Below, in pieces: positions 3,515 through 11,322 of a stretch of 64,000 bases of DNA. The notes beneath the pieces are model-generated. The model did not search any database. It was not told the DNA's origin and was given only the letters and a program-made list of their open reading frames with translations. Source of the DNA: Paracholeplasma vituli. Lineage in GTDB: Bacteria > Bacillota_I > Bacilli_A > Acholeplasmatales > UBA5453. Location of the stretch: assembly GCF_025446935.1 (NCBI RefSeq), contig NZ_JAOEGN010000005.1, positions 1-64,000 of the forward strand, given 5' to 3'. How positions within the stretch are numbered: the first letter of the stretch is position 1; each line of letters opens with the position of its first letter. Made by a program: the position numbers and the translations under genes.

Positions 3515-4411
3515 TTACCTATAAAATGAATCGTCTGGAAGTTTTCCTATAAACGCTTGATTAAAAGCGTAAATGCGTTCAAAAAGGTCAATAAGTGCTG
3601 CTTTGGATGCGTACGCATCCTTAAATTCGATGTGTGAGTTTGTGATTGCTTGTTGATAAATGGATTCCGGTAACTCGATACCGACCGTTTTCAGTTGTGT
3701 ATACGCATCAGTACTCGTCTTAATTTGTTGAATCGAGGACGTTAAATCACGAATGAGTTTTAATCTCTTTTCACTCGATACGTTTTTGAGGACAAATACA
3801 CCGGCTTGAGGAAAACCATCCATTTGTGTGATTTCTTGATAGTGGACTTGTAAATCCACTTTATGAACAACCTGTTTCGTCTCGAGGATACTTAGACTGG
3901 GTTCTGCTATTAAATAAACCTTGGAGGAATCTAATAAATAAGCGCTTGTGATCGCGGCGACAGAATCCAAATACGTAATATCGTACTCGATTTGATACTG
4001 ATTGAAGATAAATTGAATCAAGAAATCCGGAATTTGGTTTTCCCCAAACGCAGTGACTTCTAAACGATTTATGGTCGATAAATCGATAGATGTCTCACTG
4101 ATTAAATAATAGTTACCCCAGGTGATGACCCCGACTAACGGATAATTAGGTTTCGCATTATAGAGTTTGGCACCTAAATTGACTGGTGCGATGATGACAT
4201 CGTATCCAATGTCATTAAACGCTGCAGTTAATGCCTCTGATCCACTCACGACTGTCGTTTTATACTCTGAGTTGGTTTGAAGATAACTGGTTGCGTAGGC
4301 AGGTCCACCCGTTGGAATGAGTATTTCAAGGGTGTCTTTACGACATCCACTGAGGCTAAATAATAGGGTAATTAAGAGGCCTAATAAGCCTTTTTTACTC
4401 AATTTGAGCAT
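3515..4411 (-). CDS. NMT1/THI5-like substrate-binding lipoprotein
   Basis: I choose the ATG at 4411, which gives a clean lipoprotein signal peptide ending in the lipobox LSGC with the acylated Cys near residue 23. The longer frame back to 4474 would put 21 charged residues in front of it. The body resembles the periplasmic-binding proteins of the NitT/TauT and HMP-precursor class (IPTGGPAYATSY near the N-terminus, FGENQIPDFLIQFIF hinge region). The start lies 17 bases inside the end of hydA, so translation is coupled to the hydrogenase. Ligand unknown. Confidence 0.8.
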   Translation of the reverse strand: MLKLSKKGLLGLLITLLFSLSGCRKDTLEILIPTGGPAYATSYLQTNSEYKTTVVSGSEALTAAFNDIGYDVIIAPVNLGAKLYNAKPNYPLVGVITWGNYYLISETSIDLSTINRLEVTAFGENQIPDFLIQFIFNQYQIEYDITYLDSVAAITSAYLLDSSKVYLIAEPSLSILETKQVVHKVDLQVHYQEITQMDGFPQAGVFVLKNVSSEKRLKLIRDLTSSIQQIKTSTDAYTQLKTVGIELPESIYQQAITNSHIEFKDAYASKAALIDLFERIYAFNQAFIGKLPDDSFYR

Positions 4412-6155
4412 ATGGGCTTCTCTTTTTATAAGTGGTATGTAAGAGCTCATGAGACTTCTTCGAATGGGGTTCACCTAAGAAGTTTTGATAGAGTTCTAAT
4501 ACGAACGGATTTTGATGACTCTTGCGTAAGTGTTGTTTTTCATCGATCTTATATAGTACACTCGCTCTTAACGATCTTACATCGTATTTTTCTTGGTCTT
4601 TCGCGGTCACTACAGGTTGTCCGCCACCATTGATACAACCCCCTGTACAACCCATAAATTCCACGAAATGGTATTGTTTATCGGTAGTTTTTAAGTGTTC
4701 AAGGAATGCTTTCGATGCGGCTCCACCATGGACGACAGCAACATTAATTTCTTTACCTTGAAGGGTATAGGTCGCCTCTTTAACATCCTGGGTCCCACGC
4801 ATTTCTAAGAAATCGATTGGAGTTTCTTTATTCTCTAATATTTCTGAGACTGTTCGAAGCGCCGCTTCCATAACCCCACCAGTCGCACCAAAGATAGCAC
4901 CGGCTCCGGTGTAGGTTGCCAACATCCCAAATGGTTTCGAATCTTCAAGATTCCTAAAATCAATCCCACGTCGTTTAATGAGTCTTGCGAATTCTCGAGT
5001 CGTTAAGACGTAATCGACATCTAGATTTCCATCTCGACCCATACCCTCTCTACGTGCTTCTGCTTTTTTAGCGATACAAGGCATAATCGATATTGAAACG
5101 ATATCTTTGGGGTCAAACCCCATTTTATCTGCATAATACGTTTTGATGAGTGCACCAGCCATTTGTTGAGGGCTCTTACAACTCGATAAATTGGGTATAA
5201 ATTCTGGGTAGTACAGTTCAACTAGGTTAATCCAACCGGGTGAACAGGATGTAAACATTGGAAATGGACCATCGTGTTCTAAACGATGAATAAATTCAGT
5301 ACCTTCTTCTAATATCGTTAAATCGGCTGTGAAATTGGTGTCCATGATTTCATCGACACCCAGTTCTTTAAGCGCATGGAACATTTTACCTTCAACATCC
5401 GTACCAATCGGATAACCAAAGGCTTCTCCTAAGGCCGCTCTGACTGCAGGTGCAACTTGAACAACAACTTTTTTCTTAGGGTCTCTTAAAACGCGTTCAA
5501 CCGCTTTGATATCGTCTTTTTCACGTAAAGCCCCTGTTGGGCAGGCCCCAATACATTTCCCACAGTAAATACAACCAGCATCGTCTAAACTATGAAATAA
5601 TGCGGGACCTACATAGGTTTTATTTCCACGATTATTAAAGTTTAAAACCGATAATCCCGATTGTTTTTCACAAACTGAGACACAACGGCCACATAGAATA
5701 CATTTACTGCTATCGATAATCATGACACCGTTGTCATCTTGATAATAGTAATTATCTTCATCAAACATACCGTAAAGTTGTGAGAACTCATTATCGATGG
5801 AGTATTTTCGAAGTAAGTCTAGAAATTCACAGTTATCTTCTCGTGAACATTTGAAACATTCAAAATGGTGACGGTGGGTCAAAAGTTCTAGATTCATGCT
5901 CACCGTATCGTAAACGTCTTGGTCATCGGTAAGGATGTTCATTCCTTCTGTGACTAAAGTCTTACACGCTGGTTTTAAATTCTTTTGACCTTCGATTTTA
6001 ACACTACATACTCGACAATTCGCTTCTTCGTGAACGTCTTTTAAGAAGCAAAGACGTGGAATGAAGACATTGTTTTTGGTTGCAGCTTCTAAGATGGTTT
6101 GGTCGCTATCGACCGTATATGGTAGCCCATTGATGGTGATATGTACAGGTTTCAT
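4395..6155 (-). CDS. hydA: [FeFe] hydrogenase catalytic subunit
   Basis: At 586 residues this is a full-length modular [FeFe] hydrogenase of the HndD/HydA type. The sequence shows an N-terminal [2Fe-2S] domain (C36, C47, C50, C64), the His-ligated [4Fe-4S] motif (H96, C100, C103, C109), two ferredoxin clusters (C152-C162 and C195-C205) and the H-cluster ligands in TSCSPGW (C304), MPC (C360) and MGCTGGC (C503, C507). All key cysteines are present, so it should be active if the HydEFG maturases exist elsewhere; they are not in this window. It overlaps the NuoF-like gene by 4 bases. It reduces protons to H2 with electrons from NAD(P)H and probably reduced ferredoxin. Confidence 0.96.
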   Translation of the reverse strand: MKPVHITINGLPYTVDSDQTILEAATKNNVFIPRLCFLKDVHEEANCRVCSVKIEGQKNLKPACKTLVTEGMNILTDDQDVYDTVSMNLELLTHRHHFECFKCSREDNCEFLDLLRKYSIDNEFSQLYGMFDEDNYYYQDDNGVMIIDSSKCILCGRCVSVCEKQSGLSVLNFNNRGNKTYVGPALFHSLDDAGCIYCGKCIGACPTGALREKDDIKAVERVLRDPKKKVVVQVAPAVRAALGEAFGYPIGTDVEGKMFHALKELGVDEIMDTNFTADLTILEEGTEFIHRLEHDGPFPMFTSCSPGWINLVELYYPEFIPNLSSCKSPQQMAGALIKTYYADKMGFDPKDIVSISIMPCIAKKAEARREGMGRDGNLDVDYVLTTREFARLIKRRGIDFRNLEDSKPFGMLATYTGAGAIFGATGGVMEAALRTVSEILENKETPIDFLEMRGTQDVKEATYTLQGKEINVAVVHGGAASKAFLEHLKTTDKQYHFVEFMGCTGGCINGGGQPVVTAKDQEKYDVRSLRASVLYKIDEKQHLRKSHQNPFVLELYQNFLGEPHSKKSHELLHTTYKKRSPYAQIE

Positions 6156-7963
6156 AGGGATACTCCTTGGTGTAATGGTTCAGAGGTGATGGCACCGACA
6201 GGACAAGCTTTCTTACAAGCACCACACTTAATACAAATTTCTTGGTCCAAAATGTGAACTTGTTTTGGCCATCCTGAGATGGCGTTCACTGGACAGTTCT
6301 TCGCACATTTTGTACATCCGATACAGTTATCGTGGATGACGAAGTGTGTAAGGTTTCGACACACCCCAGCTGGACACGTTTTATCGGTCACGTGGGCAAT
6401 GTATTCTTCTCTAAAGTGCTTGATCGTAGATAACACTGGATTCGGAGCCGTTTGTCCAAGACCACAAAGTGAGGTTTTCTTAATCATTTCTCCCAGACGT
6501 TCGAGTTCATCGATGTCTTCGAGTGTACCTTCTCCTTCACAAATCTTATTGAGGATATCAAGCATTTGCTTAGTACCTTCACGACATGGCGTACATTTTC
6601 CACAGGATTCATCCACAGTAAAGTCTAAATAGAATCTGGCTACGTCGACCATACAGTTGTCTTCATCCATGATAATCATTCCACCTGACCCCATCATTGA
6701 ACCTAAGGCCGTTAAGTTATCAAAATCAATCGGGGTATCTAAATCTTTTTCGGTTATGCAACCACCGGAAGGTCCTCCGGTTTGAATCGCTTTAAATTTG
6801 CGTTTACCGGGAATACCGCCACCAATATCGTAGACAACTTCACGTAGCGTAGTTCCCATTGGAACTTCTACTAAACCGGTATTATTGATTTTGCCACCTA
6901 ATGCGAATACTTTCGTCCCTGGTGATTTCGCGGTACCAATCGATCTAAAGTAATTCGAACCCCGTAAGAAAATAATCGGGATATTCGCTAAGGTTTCGAC
7001 GTTATTGACGTTGGTTGGTTTACCCCAAAGACCTTTAACGGCAGGAAATGGCGGTTTTAATACCGGCATCCCGCGGTAGCCTTCGATGGATTTAATGAGT
7101 GCGGTTTCTTCACCGCACACAAACGCACCAGCCCCGAGTCTAATGTCAATATTAAAACAGAAGTCAGTACCTAATATATATTCACCTAACAAGCCATATT
7201 CACGGGCTTGTTCAATCGCGTTTTGAAGTCTTTCTACCGCGACTGGGTATTCTGCTCTGACATAGATATAACCTTGTTTTGAACCAATCGCGTAACCACA
7301 AATGGCCATCGCTTCCAAAACGGAATGAGGGTCACCTTCGAGAATCGCACGGTCCATAAAGGCACCGGGGTCGCCCTCATCGGCGTTACAAATAACGTAT
7401 TTGATGTCGCTTTGAGAACTTCTCGCAAACTGCCATTTCATCCCCGTTGGGAATCCACCGCCGCCACGACCTTTTAAGCCTGAGGCGATGACTTCATCAA
7501 TGACACCTTCAGGAGTCATTTCAGTTAGCACTTTACCTAAACCTAAATAGCCATCTTTCGCAATATACTCATTGATATCCAGCGGATTGATTTGACCACA
7601 ATTTCTAAGAGCGATGCGGCGTTGTTTCGCGTAAAATTTGAGTTGGCTCATTTGTTTAATCTTGGTTTTAGCAATCGGGTCGTTAACCATGAGGCGTTGT
7701 ATTGGACGACCTTTTAAGAGGTGTTCTTCACAAATGGCTCTGACATCGGATACCGTAACGTGTGAATAGAATGTTTCATCGGGATAGACTACAATGACCG
7801 GTCCTTTTTCGCATAGACCAAAACAACCGGTCAAAACAAGCCCGACTTCGGATTTAATGCCCAACAATGTGAGTTCATTTTCAAAGGCTTTCTTAATCTC
7901 TTTTGAGTGTGAACTCATGCACCCTGTACCCCCACAGATGAGGACTTGAATACGTTCTAACAT
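6152..7963 (-). CDS. hydB: NuoF-like NAD(P)/FMN subunit of the hydrogenase
   Basis: This 603-residue diaphorase subunit corresponds to HydB of bifurcating hydrogenases and HndC of Desulfovibrio. In order it has an N-terminal thioredoxin-like [2Fe-2S] domain (CGGTGC and CFGLC), the NADH/FMN-binding core with GRGGGGFPTGMKW and CNADEGDPGAF, the NuoF [4Fe-4S] motif ESCGKCTPC, and a C-terminal 2[4Fe-4S] ferredoxin (CIGCTKCAKNCP and CIKCGACKKACP). It exchanges electrons between NAD(P)H, FMN and HydA. The extra C-terminal ferredoxin is the feature that distinguishes hydrogenase-linked NuoF from respiratory complex I. Confidence 0.95.
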   Translation of the reverse strand: MLERIQVLICGGTGCMSSHSKEIKKAFENELTLLGIKSEVGLVLTGCFGLCEKGPVIVVYPDETFYSHVTVSDVRAICEEHLLKGRPIQRLMVNDPIAKTKIKQMSQLKFYAKQRRIALRNCGQINPLDINEYIAKDGYLGLGKVLTEMTPEGVIDEVIASGLKGRGGGGFPTGMKWQFARSSQSDIKYVICNADEGDPGAFMDRAILEGDPHSVLEAMAICGYAIGSKQGYIYVRAEYPVAVERLQNAIEQAREYGLLGEYILGTDFCFNIDIRLGAGAFVCGEETALIKSIEGYRGMPVLKPPFPAVKGLWGKPTNVNNVETLANIPIIFLRGSNYFRSIGTAKSPGTKVFALGGKINNTGLVEVPMGTTLREVVYDIGGGIPGKRKFKAIQTGGPSGGCITEKDLDTPIDFDNLTALGSMMGSGGMIIMDEDNCMVDVARFYLDFTVDESCGKCTPCREGTKQMLDILNKICEGEGTLEDIDELERLGEMIKKTSLCGLGQTAPNPVLSTIKHFREEYIAHVTDKTCPAGVCRNLTHFVIHDNCIGCTKCAKNCPVNAISGWPKQVHILDQEICIKCGACKKACPVGAITSEPLHQGVSL

Positions 7964-7965
7964 GG

Positions 7966-8337
7966 TTATTTGTCCTTTCTCTCTGAGAGTAAATACTTCG
8001 TTATGGGTTGATGGTTAACGATATGACGTTCCACAATTTGTCTAACCATCGGAATCGTCAAAGCACAGTAAATATAGGACTGTCCGGATTCATCAATGAT
8101 TTCTGCCATCGGTTCATACGCACATTCACCCATGCACCCAACTTGGGTCACAGTGACATTCTTTAAATCGTGAAACTCACATTGTTCCAAAAATGCGTTG
8201 AGAATGGGTCTAGCACCTGAAGCAATCCCACAGGTCCCCATCCCTACTTGCACGCGAAAACCATCTTTTTGATAACGCATCGTCATCTTTTTTAAGGATT
8301 CATCACGGAGTTTCTTTAATTCATCTAGTGTTTTCAT
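7966..8337 (-). CDS. hndB: Thioredoxin-like [2Fe-2S] ferredoxin subunit (HndB type)
   Basis: This 123-residue protein matches the HndB-like small ferredoxins of NADP-reducing hydrogenases. The motif GTCGIASGAR (C36) and the later VGCMGEC (C68, C72) lie in a thioredoxin-like fold of the usual size. It is placed 2 bases before the NuoF-like gene and overlaps the end of the HATPase gene by 17 bases. Its role is to relay electrons within the hydrogenase complex. With the NuoE-, NuoF- and HydA-like genes it completes a four-subunit Hnd-type set. Confidence 0.88.
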   Translation of the reverse strand: MKTLDELKKLRDESLKKMTMRYQKDGFRVQVGMGTCGIASGARPILNAFLEQCEFHDLKNVTVTQVGCMGECAYEPMAEIIDESGQSYIYCALTIPMVRQIVERHIVNHQPITKYLLSERKDK

Positions 8338-8845
8338 TAGCCACCTCTATTAATTTGTTCTTAACGATTTCGTATAATTGGTTGCGACGCTTGAATGTCT
8401 TGGGTAGTGAATCCAAACCAAGTTCATCCAAATCAACACAAATTGTATTAAAGATAAACGTAAAATGCTTTATATCTTGATGCATGTAGATATCTGAAAC
8501 CAATTCAGCTAAATCACCCATTTCAGGGAAATCAATGTGTTTCGAGTTAAAACCTAAAAAGAGGGTTGTCCCGATATTTTGTTTAGATTCGATTTTAAAA
8601 TAGCCATCGGTTTGTTTCGTTAAATCGTGGATTAGGGAAAGGCCTAATCCCACTTTTCGAGTGGTTCTAGAGGTGTAGGTGAAAGATTCTACTCGTTTTA
8701 AGGTAGCTTCATCCATACCGATACCATCATCTTTAATCAAGACCTCTAATAGGGGTCCTTCACTAATCGTGAGTTCAATATGCTTTGATTTGGCTTGTAT
8801 TGAATTTTGAATGAGGTCATAGATATAATCGGTTAATCTAATCAT
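8321..8845 (-). CDS. Small HATPase_c ATP-binding protein, hydrogenase-associated
   Basis: The protein (174 residues from the ATG at 8845; a TTG at 8851 is a weaker start) consists mainly of a histidine-kinase-like ATP-binding domain. The N box is DLIQNSIQAKS, the G1 box is DDGIGMDEA and the G2-like segment is VGLGLSL. There is no dimerisation/phosphoacceptor domain and no membrane segment, so it is not a normal sensor kinase. Proteins like this recur beside NuoE/NuoF/HydA genes in Clostridia and Thermotogae, presumably sensing or controlling hydrogenase expression. That role is inferred only from genomic association. It overlaps the PHP gene by 8 bases. Confidence 0.8.
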   Translation of the reverse strand: MIRLTDYIYDLIQNSIQAKSKHIELTISEGPLLEVLIKDDGIGMDEATLKRVESFTYTSRTTRKVGLGLSLIHDLTKQTDGYFKIESKQNIGTTLFLGFNSKHIDFPEMGDLAELVSDIYMHQDIKHFTFIFNTICVDLDELGLDSLPKTFKRRNQLYEIVKNKLIEVANENTR

Positions 8846-9515
8846 GTCCAAAATACCTAAAGAAGGCTTCTATCGACAACGTGTCGAGCTCGATTTGATT
8901 AGGTTGTCCGACTTCTAGAATATCGATGATCTGGTGTGCATCGGAATTATATAAATCGTTATTATGCTTTTTAAGGTCAGGGTTACGATATTCAAAGCCA
9001 TCTAATGGATAGGACTGAGTATAGGCTAACCCACTTCTACTTTTTTTATCCATATGGGCATAGATGAGAATGTAATCAAATGGTTTTAGAACATCGATCA
9101 AATTCTCTATACCAAGTTCTAATGGGGTCGCTAGCAAGTAAGGATACATTTCTACGACTTCATCGTCGATGTTACACATCCACTGTTCACCATAATAGTC
9201 CGTATCGTAGGTTTGTTTGGGTAAGTAGGTTTCAAGGATGTGATCAAACTGCATAGCTTCCTCGATATGTTTGAAGTAACATAACACATCGAAACCCTCT
9301 TTAACAGTGATTTCAACCCCAGGTATGAATAAAAAGTCATAACTCTTCGATAATTCGTAACAGACTGGAATTTGTTTTAAACTGTTGTGATCGGTAACAC
9401 TGATGATATTTAGCTGTTTTAATGACGCCATATTAAAAATATTATTTGGCGTCATCAGCACATCCCCGCAGGGGGATAAAACACTGTGGATATGGAGGTC
9501 ATAGGCATATTTCAT
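8838..9515 (-). CDS. PHP-domain phosphoesterase, hydrogenase-associated
   Basis: This 225-residue protein opens with the PHP signature DLHIHSVLSPCGD, followed by SVTDHNS, PGVEITV and, near the end, NSDAHQI. These are the metal-binding His/Asp residues expected of a PHP hydrolase. The family includes the polymerase PHP domain and the YciV/RNase AM nucleotidase, so a phosphoesterase activity is likely but the substrate is unknown. It is embedded in the hydrogenase operon between a DRTGG-like gene and the HATPase gene, with 4- and 8-base overlaps, which implies a fixed stoichiometric partnership. Confidence 0.85.
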   Translation of the reverse strand: MKYAYDLHIHSVLSPCGDVLMTPNNIFNMASLKQLNIISVTDHNSLKQIPVCYELSKSYDFLFIPGVEITVKEGFDVLCYFKHIEEAMQFDHILETYLPKQTYDTDYYGEQWMCNIDDEVVEMYPYLLATPLELGIENLIDVLKPFDYILIYAHMDKKSRSGLAYTQSYPLDGFEYRNPDLKKHNNDLYNSDAHQIIDILEVGQPNQIELDTLSIEAFFRYFGHD

Positions 9516-9844
9516 AGTAACCCTCTTAAAACTAAATCCTGAATGACTTCATGGGTTAAATAGGTTGTCTTAATGACGGTTATTTGAGCTTCTTTCGCTT
9601 TTTCTATAAAGGCATCCGTCAACAAGGCATCCTGCGTTAATATCACGATTTGGAGGTCTAACATCGACATCACATTCAATGTCGATTGACTACAAATAAG
9701 TGTGATGAGGATATGATCTGGACGCATGTGCTTAATGGCTGTAGAAAGTAAGTCAGTCGCGAAAACGCCCTTGAATGAACTATCTTCAGTACCAGTTAAT
9801 CTTTGGTACTGTTCGTTATGTAGTAATGTGGACAGGTAAGCCAT
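9512..9844 (-). CDS. DRTGG-like small protein, hydrogenase-associated
   Basis: This 110-residue soluble protein has alternating beta/alpha hydrophobicity (VFATDLLSTAIKH, DHILITLIC, LDLQIVILTQDA, QITVIKTTYLT). It closely parallels the neighbouring DRTGG protein at 10256-10639 (AFCSDLMSDALVIM, HTILITGLA, DVVLLVRGK, NVMLLTTETT), and I read the two as paralogues. DRTGG domains occur as ligand-binding regulatory modules, for instance with CBS domains. It overlaps both neighbouring genes. Function unknown. Confidence 0.7.
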   Translation of the reverse strand: MAYLSTLLHNEQYQRLTGTEDSSFKGVFATDLLSTAIKHMRPDHILITLICSQSTLNVMSMLDLQIVILTQDALLTDAFIEKAKEAQITVIKTTYLTHEVIQDLVLRGLL

Positions 9845-10262
9845 CTCGATCCCCCACTTTAAAAAACATCTTTAAATGTGTCCCTCTAGGACTAGAATGA
9901 ATGGTGAGTCTGTCCGAGAGTTCTTTCATATTATTTAGCCCCATACCGGCTCCAAACCCATTGATATGAGCAATTTCAGATGCCGTAGAGTAGCCCTTTT
10001 TCATAGCTAGTTCGATATCCAAAATTCCAGGGCCATCATCGTAAAAATTAAGTTCGATAGTATCATCCAAAATTTCGTAGGTCATGTACCCACCCACTGA
10101 ATGGATAACTACATTGATTTCTGCTTCATAAGAGGCAGAACAGACGCGACTGATAAACGTTCGAGGGTATAAAAGATTCCCCTTAAGATACCGTTTTAAA
10201 TCCGAGGAAGCTCTTCCAGCTAAATCAAAGTTTCCCGCAATGATTTGATGTTCTTTTACCAT
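9816..10262 (-). CDS. RsbW-like anti-sigma-type ATPase, hydrogenase-associated
   Basis: This 148-residue protein is a stand-alone GHKL ATPase domain of the anti-sigma/serine-kinase group. ASYEAEINVVIHS holds the N-box-like helix, FYDDGPGILDIELAM is the G1 box, and GFGAGMGLNNMKELSD is the glycine-rich lid. No sigma factor or STAS anti-anti-sigma gene is nearby, so the classical partner-switching circuit is not obvious. It overlaps the next gene by 29 bases and the previous one by 7, and belongs to the conserved regulatory insert of the hydrogenase operon. Confidence 0.8.
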   Translation of the reverse strand: MVKEHQIIAGNFDLAGRASSDLKRYLKGNLLYPRTFISRVCSASYEAEINVVIHSVGGYMTYEILDDTIELNFYDDGPGILDIELAMKKGYSTASEIAHINGFGAGMGLNNMKELSDRLTIHSSPRGTHLKMFFKVGDRDGLPVHITT

Positions 10263-10639
10263 TGAATGTTGTATTTTACGCCACGTATGCCTAAACCATA
10301 AAGAACACCACTCGCATTGAACATGGTCGTTTCTGTGGTTAACAACATGACGTTGGCTTCGTGTGCCAACATAATGACTTTCTCAGAAGGGATTTTACCT
10401 CTGACCAATAGTACGACATCCACATCGAGCATTTCCGCTGTTCGGATGGATTGTTGTGTGGCTAAACCCGTGATGAGGATGGTGTGTTCAAGAATTTTTG
10501 GATCTTTGACTGAATTCATAATGACTAAAGCATCACTCATTAAATCCGAACAGAAAGCAAAGTTTATGTCTTTATCCTTCATCAGTGAGGGTGTGTATGT
10601 TTTCGCTTCCATCAAATCCATGATCTCAATTAGTTTCAT
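10256..10639 (-). CDS. DRTGG-domain protein, hydrogenase-associated
   Basis: This 127-residue protein resembles the DRTGG-domain proteins seen next to NuoE-like hydrogenase genes. It has repeated short beta-strands (HTILITGLA, VDVVLLVRGK, NVMLLTTET) alternating with helices and no membrane segment. It is likely to bind a small ligand. It overlaps the NuoE-like gene by 14 bases and the RsbW-like gene by 7. Its parallel with the shorter protein at 9512-9844 suggests that a duplication created a pair flanking the anti-sigma-like ATPase. Confidence 0.75.
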   Translation of the reverse strand: MKLIEIMDLMEAKTYTPSLMKDKDINFAFCSDLMSDALVIMNSVKDPKILEHTILITGLATQQSIRTAEMLDVDVVLLVRGKIPSEKVIMLAHEANVMLLTTETTMFNASGVLYGLGIRGVKYNIQW

Positions 10640-11126
10640 GTGGAAGTTCCTTTAGTTCTTTGATTGTTTCTTTTACCTTACTAACATTCGCATTTCCATG
10701 AATCGCACCATCAACAGAAAAAACAGGAGCGAGGCCACAAGCTCCAATACAGCGGGTGGAAACCAACGTGATTTCGCCATCAGGTGTCGTTTCTTTTTCT
10801 TTAATTTTAAGTTCGTTTTCCAAGGTTTCCATCAGGTTCTTAGAACCACGAACATAGCATGCTGTACCTAAGCAAACCGCAACCGTATGTTCTCCTTTAG
10901 GTGTGACTGAAAAGTTGCCATAAAAAGTGACAACGCCATTGATTTTAGCGATACTTTCGCCAAGTTCTTCTGAGATGATCTTTTGAATGGATAAAGGAAT
11001 ATAGCCAAAAATGGTCTGAGCATCATGCAATGTAGGCATGAGTGGACCTGGTTTCTGTTTGTTTTCCGCCATTCTAGCATAAAAAAGGTTAATCTTTTCT
11101 TGACAAAGATGGTCATTCATATTCAT
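10626..11126 (-). CDS. hydC: NuoE-like [2Fe-2S] subunit of the hydrogenase
   Basis: This 166-residue NuoE/HndA-type subunit has the four [2Fe-2S] ligands in VCLGTAC (C85, C90) and STRCIGACG (C126, C130), and the family motif GVVTFYGNFS. It is the first gene of the operon, with a good ribosome-binding site (GGAG, five bases before the ATG at 11126). It passes electrons to the NuoF-like subunit. Five regulatory genes separate it from the other hydrogenase subunits, an arrangement known from Clostridia-type clusters. Confidence 0.92.
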   Translation of the reverse strand: MNMNDHLCQEKINLFYARMAENKQKPGPLMPTLHDAQTIFGYIPLSIQKIISEELGESIAKINGVVTFYGNFSVTPKGEHTVAVCLGTACYVRGSKNLMETLENELKIKEKETTPDGEITLVSTRCIGACGLAPVFSVDGAIHGNANVSKVKETIKELKELPHETN

Positions 11127-11273: not shown

Positions 11274-11306
11274 GTAAAAAAAATACCCAGCCTTTTAGCT
11301 GGGTAT
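11274..11306 (-). terminator. Terminator of the beta-glucan locus after the LacI gene
   Basis: ATACCCAGC (11283-11291) and GCTGGGTAT (11298-11306) form a 9-bp stem, followed on the minus strand by an uninterrupted T-run. It closes the carbohydrate operon before the hydrogenase promoter region. Confidence 0.88.
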
Positions 11307-11322
11307 CCATTTAGTTCACATA

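Follow-up and report, generated by a model that had tools for sequence, protein, structure and literature searches.

A conserved DRTGG, RsbW-like, PHP and GHKL ATPase gene cassette, devoid of its sensory hydrogenase, in a predicted bifurcating-hydrogenase operon of Paracholeplasma vituli

The subject of this analysis is a group of five overlapping open reading frames (ORFs) at positions 8321-10639, on the minus strand, of a 64,000-nucleotide stretch of DNA from Paracholeplasma vituli (positions 1 to 64,000 of contig NZ_JAOEGN010000005.1, assembly GCF_025446935.1; the whole stretch is referred to as 'the window'), flanked by hydC on one side and by hydD-hydB-hydA on the other. The genome holding the window comprises 1.86 Mb and is 99.99% complete. 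In order of transcription, a nine-gene minus-strand operon encodes HydC, DRTGG-A, an RsbW-like protein, DRTGG-B, a PHP protein, a GHKL ATPase, HydD, HydB and HydA; the genes overlap by 4-29 nucleotides at each junction except for a 2-nucleotide gap between HydD and HydB, and a strong terminator (11308-11281) sets the operon apart from an upstream LacI-type gene. An earlier note on this DNA, made from its letters alone, had placed the five genes between a NuoE-like gene and the other hydrogenase subunits and had described them as nearly all overlapping, and its coordinates and domain calls proved right, that of DRTGG-A being weak by sequence and clear by fold. The features are as follows.

10626..11126, minus strand: HydC, NuoE-like [2Fe-2S] subunit with a thioredoxin fold, encoded first in the operon (PF01257, 1.3e-43; 14-nucleotide overlap with DRTGG-A)
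10256..10639, minus strand: DRTGG-A, stand-alone DRTGG domain, 127 residues (PF07085 weak, 0.0087, plus fold match)
9816..10262, minus strand: RsbW/SpoIIAB-type GHKL ATPase, putative serine kinase, 148 residues (HATPase_c, 1.5e-6; TIGR01925, 2.5e-10)
9816..9844, minus strand: RsbW/DRTGG-B junction, the site of hydS in relatives; hydS is absent here and genome-wide
9512..9844, minus strand: DRTGG-B, 110 residues (PF07085, 26.8 bits, above cut-off)
8838..9515, minus strand: PHP-family phosphoesterase, 225 residues (PF02811, 2.9e-6)
8321..8845, minus strand: stand-alone GHKL ATPase with a C-terminal domain of its own (HATPase_c, 2.9e-13)
7966..8337, minus strand: HydD/HndB-like [2Fe-2S] ferredoxin-fold subunit (PF01257, 1.5e-5; PDB match 8oh5_B, 1.2e-16)
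6152..7963, minus strand: HydB, flavin mononucleotide (FMN)/NAD diaphorase subunit (Complex1_51K, 8.8e-47; NADH_4Fe-4S, 1.8e-36)
4395..6155, minus strand: HydA, catalytic subunit of an NADH-dependent [FeFe]-hydrogenase, NCBI group A6 (NF040763, 777.9 bits against a cut-off of 765)
11281..11308, minus strand: intrinsic terminator upstream of hydC, a 12-bp stem followed by a T run

A group A6 HydA accompanied by an FMN/NAD-binding HydB and by HydC identifies the enzyme as a tetrameric HydABCD hydrogenase, for which bifurcation activity is predicted; the match of HydD in the PDB is to the N-terminus of HydB/HoxF chains.

A search with the PHP protein in 392 genomes of the window's phylum returned 36 full-length relatives, including that of the window, and all 35 neighbourhoods fetched sit in a HydABC operon (one being cut in HydB by the end of its contig). 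Of 399 genomes sampled from the clostridial phylum (that of Thermobrachium), 155 likewise proved to carry the cassette when searched with a PHP profile, as the earlier note had anticipated for Clostridia, and so did 2 of 148 Bacteroidota genomes. Recurrence next to HydABC in 35 further genomes sampled from the window's phylum, and in 155 clostridial ones, shows that the arrangement is not due to chance. A scan of named genomes with the PHP alignment, from which 80 of 466 relatives were kept, recovered mostly Erysipelotrichaceae, Lachnospiraceae, Thermoanaerobacterium, Christensenella and other Firmicutes, along with two Bacteroidota. The gene order is well conserved: 137 of 194 loci read DRT-RsbW-HydS-DRT-PHP (DRT denoting a DRTGG gene) and 23 read DRT-RsbW-DRT-PHP without HydS, while the remainder are mostly fusions or cut by contig edges. 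In Lachnospiraceae the genes form two divergent units, DRT-RsbW-HydS-DRT-PHP and HydC-GHKL-HydD-HydB-HydA, which assigns the GHKL ATPase to the enzyme and leaves the other genes as the core of the cassette; in many gene orders the GHKL ATPase lies inside the HydC-HydD-HydB block. The five-gene module of the earlier note is thus real and conserved, but most relatives possess a sixth gene, and the core consists of the first four genes plus HydS. As side observations, the cassette is being lost within one genus, where genome G064 (locus L168) retains only a DRTGG gene and the GHKL ATPase and where the PHP gene of G251 (L057) contains three in-frame TGA codons; in L091 and L132 PHP adjoins HydC-HydD-HydB-HydA, with no DRTGG, RsbW, HydS or GHKL ATPase detected at these loci.

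The sixth gene, of about 390 residues, lies between RsbW and DRTGG-B in 19 of the 35 fetched loci and encodes an H-domain together with two 4Fe-4S motifs and, at the C-terminus, an FeS domain; the four H-cluster-type Cys and all FeS Cys are invariant in 150 sequences. It is a group D (M2e) 'sensory' [FeFe]-hydrogenase, HydS. The homologue from Thermoanaerobacter mathranii, TamHydS, binds the H-cluster, turns over slowly and has been proposed to be an H2 sensor (PMC8163306), and group D genes have been described upstream of bifurcating hydrogenases with kinases in between (PMC3561251, PMC3608648). HydS is absent from the locus and from the whole genome holding the window, where the partial matches found were all of hydrogenase, ferredoxin or RnfB type. 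A 49% match on contig C11 considered as a HydS remnant proved to be a short RnfB-like FeS protein, the gene of which has RnfA/RnfE-like neighbours. That contig (L069:1408-3087) carries RnfE- and RnfA-like genes followed by a 67-residue Cys-rich gene, a 103-residue short RnfB-like FeS gene and an ApbE-like gene, and the genome thus appears to encode an Rnf/Nqr-type complex separate from the cassette.

In a tree of RsbW plus PHP, the window and 13 HydS-less relatives form a single clade (support 100/98; 14 rows), and at least five further gains or losses of HydS fall outside it; a single loss of HydS at the base of the window clade is what this topology indicates. The five remaining genes have been, judging from ratios of non-synonymous to synonymous substitution (dN/dS) of 0.04-0.26 where dS could be estimated, under purifying selection since that loss, with DRTGG-B, PHP and the GHKL ATPase under looser constraint than DRTGG-A and RsbW in most comparisons. 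The substitution W46L of DRTGG-B was considered as a former HydS contact and rejected: it is found in the window clade only, and lineages that lost HydS independently do not share it.

Only DRTGG-B scores above the PF07085 cut-off, and DRTGG-A falls below it (16.3 versus 25.2 bits). The AlphaFold model of DRTGG-A (predicted local distance difference test score 94.4), however, matches in Foldseek the DRTGG structures 3l2b/3l31 (E 2.8e-6) and 2ioj (template modelling score 0.74-0.78), so that DRTGG-B by Pfam and DRTGG-A by its modelled fold both qualify as DRTGG proteins. The fold of DRTGG-A is that of the CBS/DRTGG regulatory region of CBS-pyrophosphatase (3l2b/3l31), which has an adenylate-binding role; adenine nucleotide binding by DRTGG proteins is not known beyond the CBS-pyrophosphatase relatives. 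D32, S35, D36, K82 and G111 of DRTGG-A are conserved at 99-100%, and a D31-L-L-S34 motif is near-invariant among 170 DRTGG-B sequences.

The RsbW-like protein matches the anti-sigma F model TIGR01925 below its equivalog cut-off, and a sequence search of the PDB with it gave no match. E46, E48, N50, H54, D75, G77, G79 and G102-G108 are near-invariant in 151 sequences and all kept in the window; with its N-box acid and Asn and its glycine boxes the protein belongs among GHKL kinases by sequence, and is predicted to be active as one. In PHP, the eight ligand-type residues H8, H10, D42, H43, E68, H154, D192 and H194 are conserved in 185 sequences and kept in the window, whereas the metal-site position 76, usually H, is D there. 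The stand-alone GHKL ATPase (176 residues, with HATPase at 2-99 from the start) has a conserved ATG at 8845, two codons downstream of the listed TTG start at 8851. It keeps the N-box and glycine boxes, and its AlphaFold model (score 89.3) resembles MutL and histidine-kinase CA domains in Foldseek; no HisKA match and no histidine-acceptor (DHp) domain was found in it. By position and described domain it is the counterpart of HydE of A. woodii (Awo_c27000) and of Tte0891 of Caldanaerobacter, which lie between hydC and hydD (PMC3315566, PMC10472528, PMC4694547), and is distinct from the radical-SAM maturase that is also named HydE.

Natural fusions provide the best sequence evidence for which of these proteins act together. 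DRTGG is fused (i) to RsbW in ten loci, at the N-terminus, and (ii) to HydS in three, at the C-terminus in two and at the N-terminus in one; (iii) PHP and the GHKL ATPase form a single protein in L235 (by Pfam) and in L233, L234 and L138 (by length); and (iv) a pair of CBS domains is joined to RsbW in L209 and L257 (by Pfam) and in L207, L210, L212 and L243 (by length), HydS being absent from four of these six loci. The fusions link the very proteins proposed as partners, and indicate that these cooperate directly.

The enzymes beside the cassette were surveyed in 80 neighbourhoods of about 18 kb, spread over the ranking with long contigs favoured (79 from the clostridial phylum, one from Bacteroidota). 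HydABC is the neighbour in 54, of which 10 have Rnf as well; a further 5 have only Rnf, 9 a formate dehydrogenase and 4 only a HydB-like gene. In the four formate dehydrogenase genes checked, an in-frame TGA, representing selenocysteine, interrupts an HCARL-U-H motif; in L200, L219, L226, L231 and L233-L235 such an enzyme is joined to HydB/HydC-like subunits and the cassette, and is apparently NAD-linked. A gene for Rex occurs in 23 of the 80 loci, when well under one would be expected (18.6-kb stretch, genome of about 2.6 Mb, one Rex). In nine of them the Rex and DRT-RsbW genes share 4 nucleotides, in three Rex precedes DRTGG-A by 46-61 nucleotides and in one by 272, and in the other ten it lies on the hydrogenase, formate dehydrogenase or Rnf side. 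The common factor of these contexts is an enzyme that balances NADH, ferredoxin and the ion gradient rather than the hydrogenase as such. A distribution independent of bifurcating hydrogenases, which the earlier note had named as fatal to its reading, is hence found in part: the cassette also adjoins Rnf, selenocysteine formate dehydrogenase and Rex, and three of its carriers (G427, G573 and G623, from loci with none of the enzymes) have no match to a full-length group A HydA in their genomes. The output, which had been called unknown, can at the same time be narrowed: the window genome gave no match to the STAS, SpoIIE or Rex families, but in other genomes Rex is translationally coupled to the cassette. 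A Rex box upstream of hydC was considered and rejected, the motif TTGTTAAN4TTAACAA not being enriched in the window (15 found versus 13.2 expected) and the genome having no Rex family match.

Several further neighbours were seen. In L236-L245 (e.g. L236) the cassette adjoins HydB-like proteins of about 1010 residues, in which HydB carries an extra part of about 400 residues; in Anaerovorax, subunit D of a V-ATPase adjoins it. A group-C-like sensor hydrogenase fused to PAS, sigma-54 activator and helix-turn-helix domains (verified) is encoded at L192:15206-17890, and similar long HydA-like ORFs occur in L205, L206, L221, L241, L255 and L259, downstream of or near cassette-bearing HydABC loci. 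In the window itself, an ORF resembling a substrate-binding protein (3515-4474) shares up to 80 nucleotides with the 3' end of hydA and precedes ABC transporter genes; this ORF is possibly co-transcribed with the hydrogenase operon.

Taken together, our findings suggest, with about even confidence, that the five genes represent a sensor-less version of a conserved cassette which adjusts enzymes coupling NAD(H) and ferredoxin, namely HydABCD, Rnf and NAD-linked formate dehydrogenase. The RsbW-type ATPase would bind, and probably phosphorylate, the DRTGG proteins, which would take the place held by STAS antagonists in the partner switching of Bacillus; they are the likeliest partners of RsbW because the usual ones are absent, because DRTGG proteins are encoded on both sides of RsbW and because they are fused to it elsewhere. 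PHP may supply the reversing activity, either as a phosphatase acting on the DRTGG proteins or as an enzyme that degrades their nucleotide ligand. The DRTGG proteins, relatives of which bind adenine nucleotides, would then set the switch, as would HydS, where present, in response to H2 or the redox state of ferredoxin. The output of the switch, with control presumably running from switch to enzyme, would reach the diaphorase part through the HydE-type GHKL ATPase and, in genomes coupling Rex to the cassette, also transcription. In the window, which is devoid of HydS and Rex, the input might be the nucleotide or energy state alone, with the co-translated hydrogenase as the likeliest target. The nucleotide- or redox-responsive partner switching envisaged by the earlier note survives in so far as an RsbW-type kinase, DRTGG partners of a nucleotide-binding type and a plausible redox link are present, while the classical STAS and SpoIIE partners have no match. 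It is tempting to go further and to speculate, tentatively and with the chances somewhat against us, that DRTGG proteins constitute a new class of RsbW substrate or antagonist, that group D hydrogenases transduce their signal through the cassette, a portable switch responding to H2, ferredoxin and energy charge that clostridia couple to HydABC, Rnf, formate dehydrogenase or Rex, and that the window lineage was rewired to nucleotide sensing alone once its H2 sensor was lost.

Several considerations weigh against the proposal that the cassette adjusts such enzymes. Co-location, however well conserved, is proof of linkage and not of mechanism. In 8 of the 80 loci none of the three enzymes occurs within about 9 kb (one of these being cut by a contig end), so that there is no consistent output gene. 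The cassettes of L251 and L258 have neither RsbW nor HydS. At codon 76 of PHP (window 9288-9290), a metal-site position occupied by H in 95% of the family, the window and several of its HydS-less relatives encode D. Finally, DRTGG-B, PHP and the GHKL ATPase of the window evolve faster than the hydrogenase subunits.

Alternatively, the five proteins could be factors for assembly, maturation or reactivation of HydBC-type flavin/Fe-S modules, with the GHKL ATPase as an ATP-driven chaperone. Co-translation with the hydrogenase subunits, the flavin/Fe-S diaphorase parts shared by HydABC, HydBC-linked formate dehydrogenase and Rnf, and the 'assembly or signalling' role proposed for HydE of A. woodii (PMC3315566) would all fit. 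Most loci for full-length group A6 HydA lack the cassette, however, and 19 of 20 such loci fetched carry none of it, the sole exception being L168 of G064, with a GHKL ATPase and a DRTGG gene, in the genus where the rest was lost. Moreover, the (HydABCD)2 complex was obtained in E. coli without the DRTGG, RsbW and PHP genes, though with Tte0891 (PMC4694547), and the links to Rex, CBS domains and HydS point to sensing; we thus consider an assembly role unlikely. That the genes are mere relics, passengers of an operon decaying after the loss of HydS, might be read from the absence of HydS, from H76D in PHP and W46L in DRTGG-B of the window clade, and from the decay (G251) and partial loss (G064, L168) in related genomes. 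Yet no cassette locus in the clade (13 relatives) has lost any of the five genes, the active-site residues of RsbW are intact and dN/dS is low where it could be estimated, which leaves the relic explanation decidedly improbable.

Classical anti-sigma switching, in which the RsbW kinase sequesters an alternative sigma factor until an RsbV/STAS antagonist, which a SpoIIE-type phosphatase resets, frees it, draws on the SpoIIAB-like, kinase-type N-box and ATP lid of RsbW and on the six sigma70 region-2 proteins encoded in the genome. Searches of the window genome, however, gave no match to a STAS antagonist (PF01740; RsbV/SpoIIAA) or to a SpoIIE/RsbU-type PP2C phosphatase (PF07228), and classical switching is unlikely because of this; no sigma factor was found among the neighbour genes scanned, and RsbW is fused to DRTGG or CBS domains instead. 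We therefore regard it as very improbable. Direct phosphorylation of HydB/HydC by RsbW or the GHKL ATPase, reversed by PHP under nucleotide-sensing DRTGG regulators, is scarcely to be expected, since most HydABC enzymes function without the cassette and some cassettes have no HydBC neighbour, co-translation in the window and the retention of the GHKL ATPase within the HydC-HydD-HydB block in many orders notwithstanding.

The signal transduction of group D hydrogenases has been called an open question, with partners unknown (Land et al. 2020), and these 'sensory' enzymes have so far been studied spectroscopically. The cassette family now proposes candidates, namely two DRTGG proteins, an RsbW kinase, a PHP hydrolase and a HydE-type ATPase, and makes the output testable; the fusions rank which protein pairs to examine first, and the window lineage offers a natural control for loss of the sensor. 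If adjustment by the cassette holds true, sensing of H2, ferredoxin, NADH (Rex) and adenylate would be linked in anaerobes of gut, rumen and industry, and the uncharacterised hydE/tte0891 already carried in published hydrogenase constructs would be explained.

Several known systems resemble the cassette in part. With RsbW/SpoIIAB-RsbV-SpoIIE of Bacillus it shares the RsbW-type ATP site, including the catalytic acid and Asn of the N-box, but DRTGG and PHP take the gene positions of the STAS antagonist and the PP2C phosphatase. The operons hydC-hydE-hydD-hydB-hydA of A. woodii and hydC-tte0891-hydD-hydB-hydA of Caldanaerobacter have the same ATPase position and the same tetrameric HydABCD (PMC3315566, PMC10472528, PMC4694547), and the window adds four cassette genes between hydC and hydE. 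The CBS/DRTGG region of clostridial CBS-pyrophosphatase (3l2b, 3l31) and the N-domain of HPr kinase share the DRTGG fold; in the cassette, however, DRTGG stands alone as two copies of 110-127 residues without a pyrophosphatase, while the pairing of CBS with DRTGG is echoed by the CBS pairs joined to RsbW in some relatives, most of which are HydS-less. Sensors of group C (HydS of T. maritima, PAS type) likewise lie near a bifurcating hydrogenase, and TM1420-TM1422 of T. maritima have been listed as this arrangement, different from the cassette (PMC3561251); group C has a PAS output domain of its own (with a sigma-54 activator in L192), whereas the HydS of the cassette has none. For group D loci, the published accounts that we found mention an AraC regulator, serine/histidine kinases and a histidine-kinase-like ATPase as the only nearby genes, and neither the DRTGG/PHP set nor its fusions or its Rnf, formate dehydrogenase and Rex contexts; our literature searches likewise found no description of the set. 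With the group D loci themselves (TamHydS; Cthe_0335, TTE0887 and Athe_1292), the cassette of the window's relatives shares this HydS, upstream of HydABC (PMC8163306, PMC3561251); the window is devoid of HydS, but the order DRT-RsbW-DRT-PHP is present beside an enzyme coupling NAD and ferredoxin.

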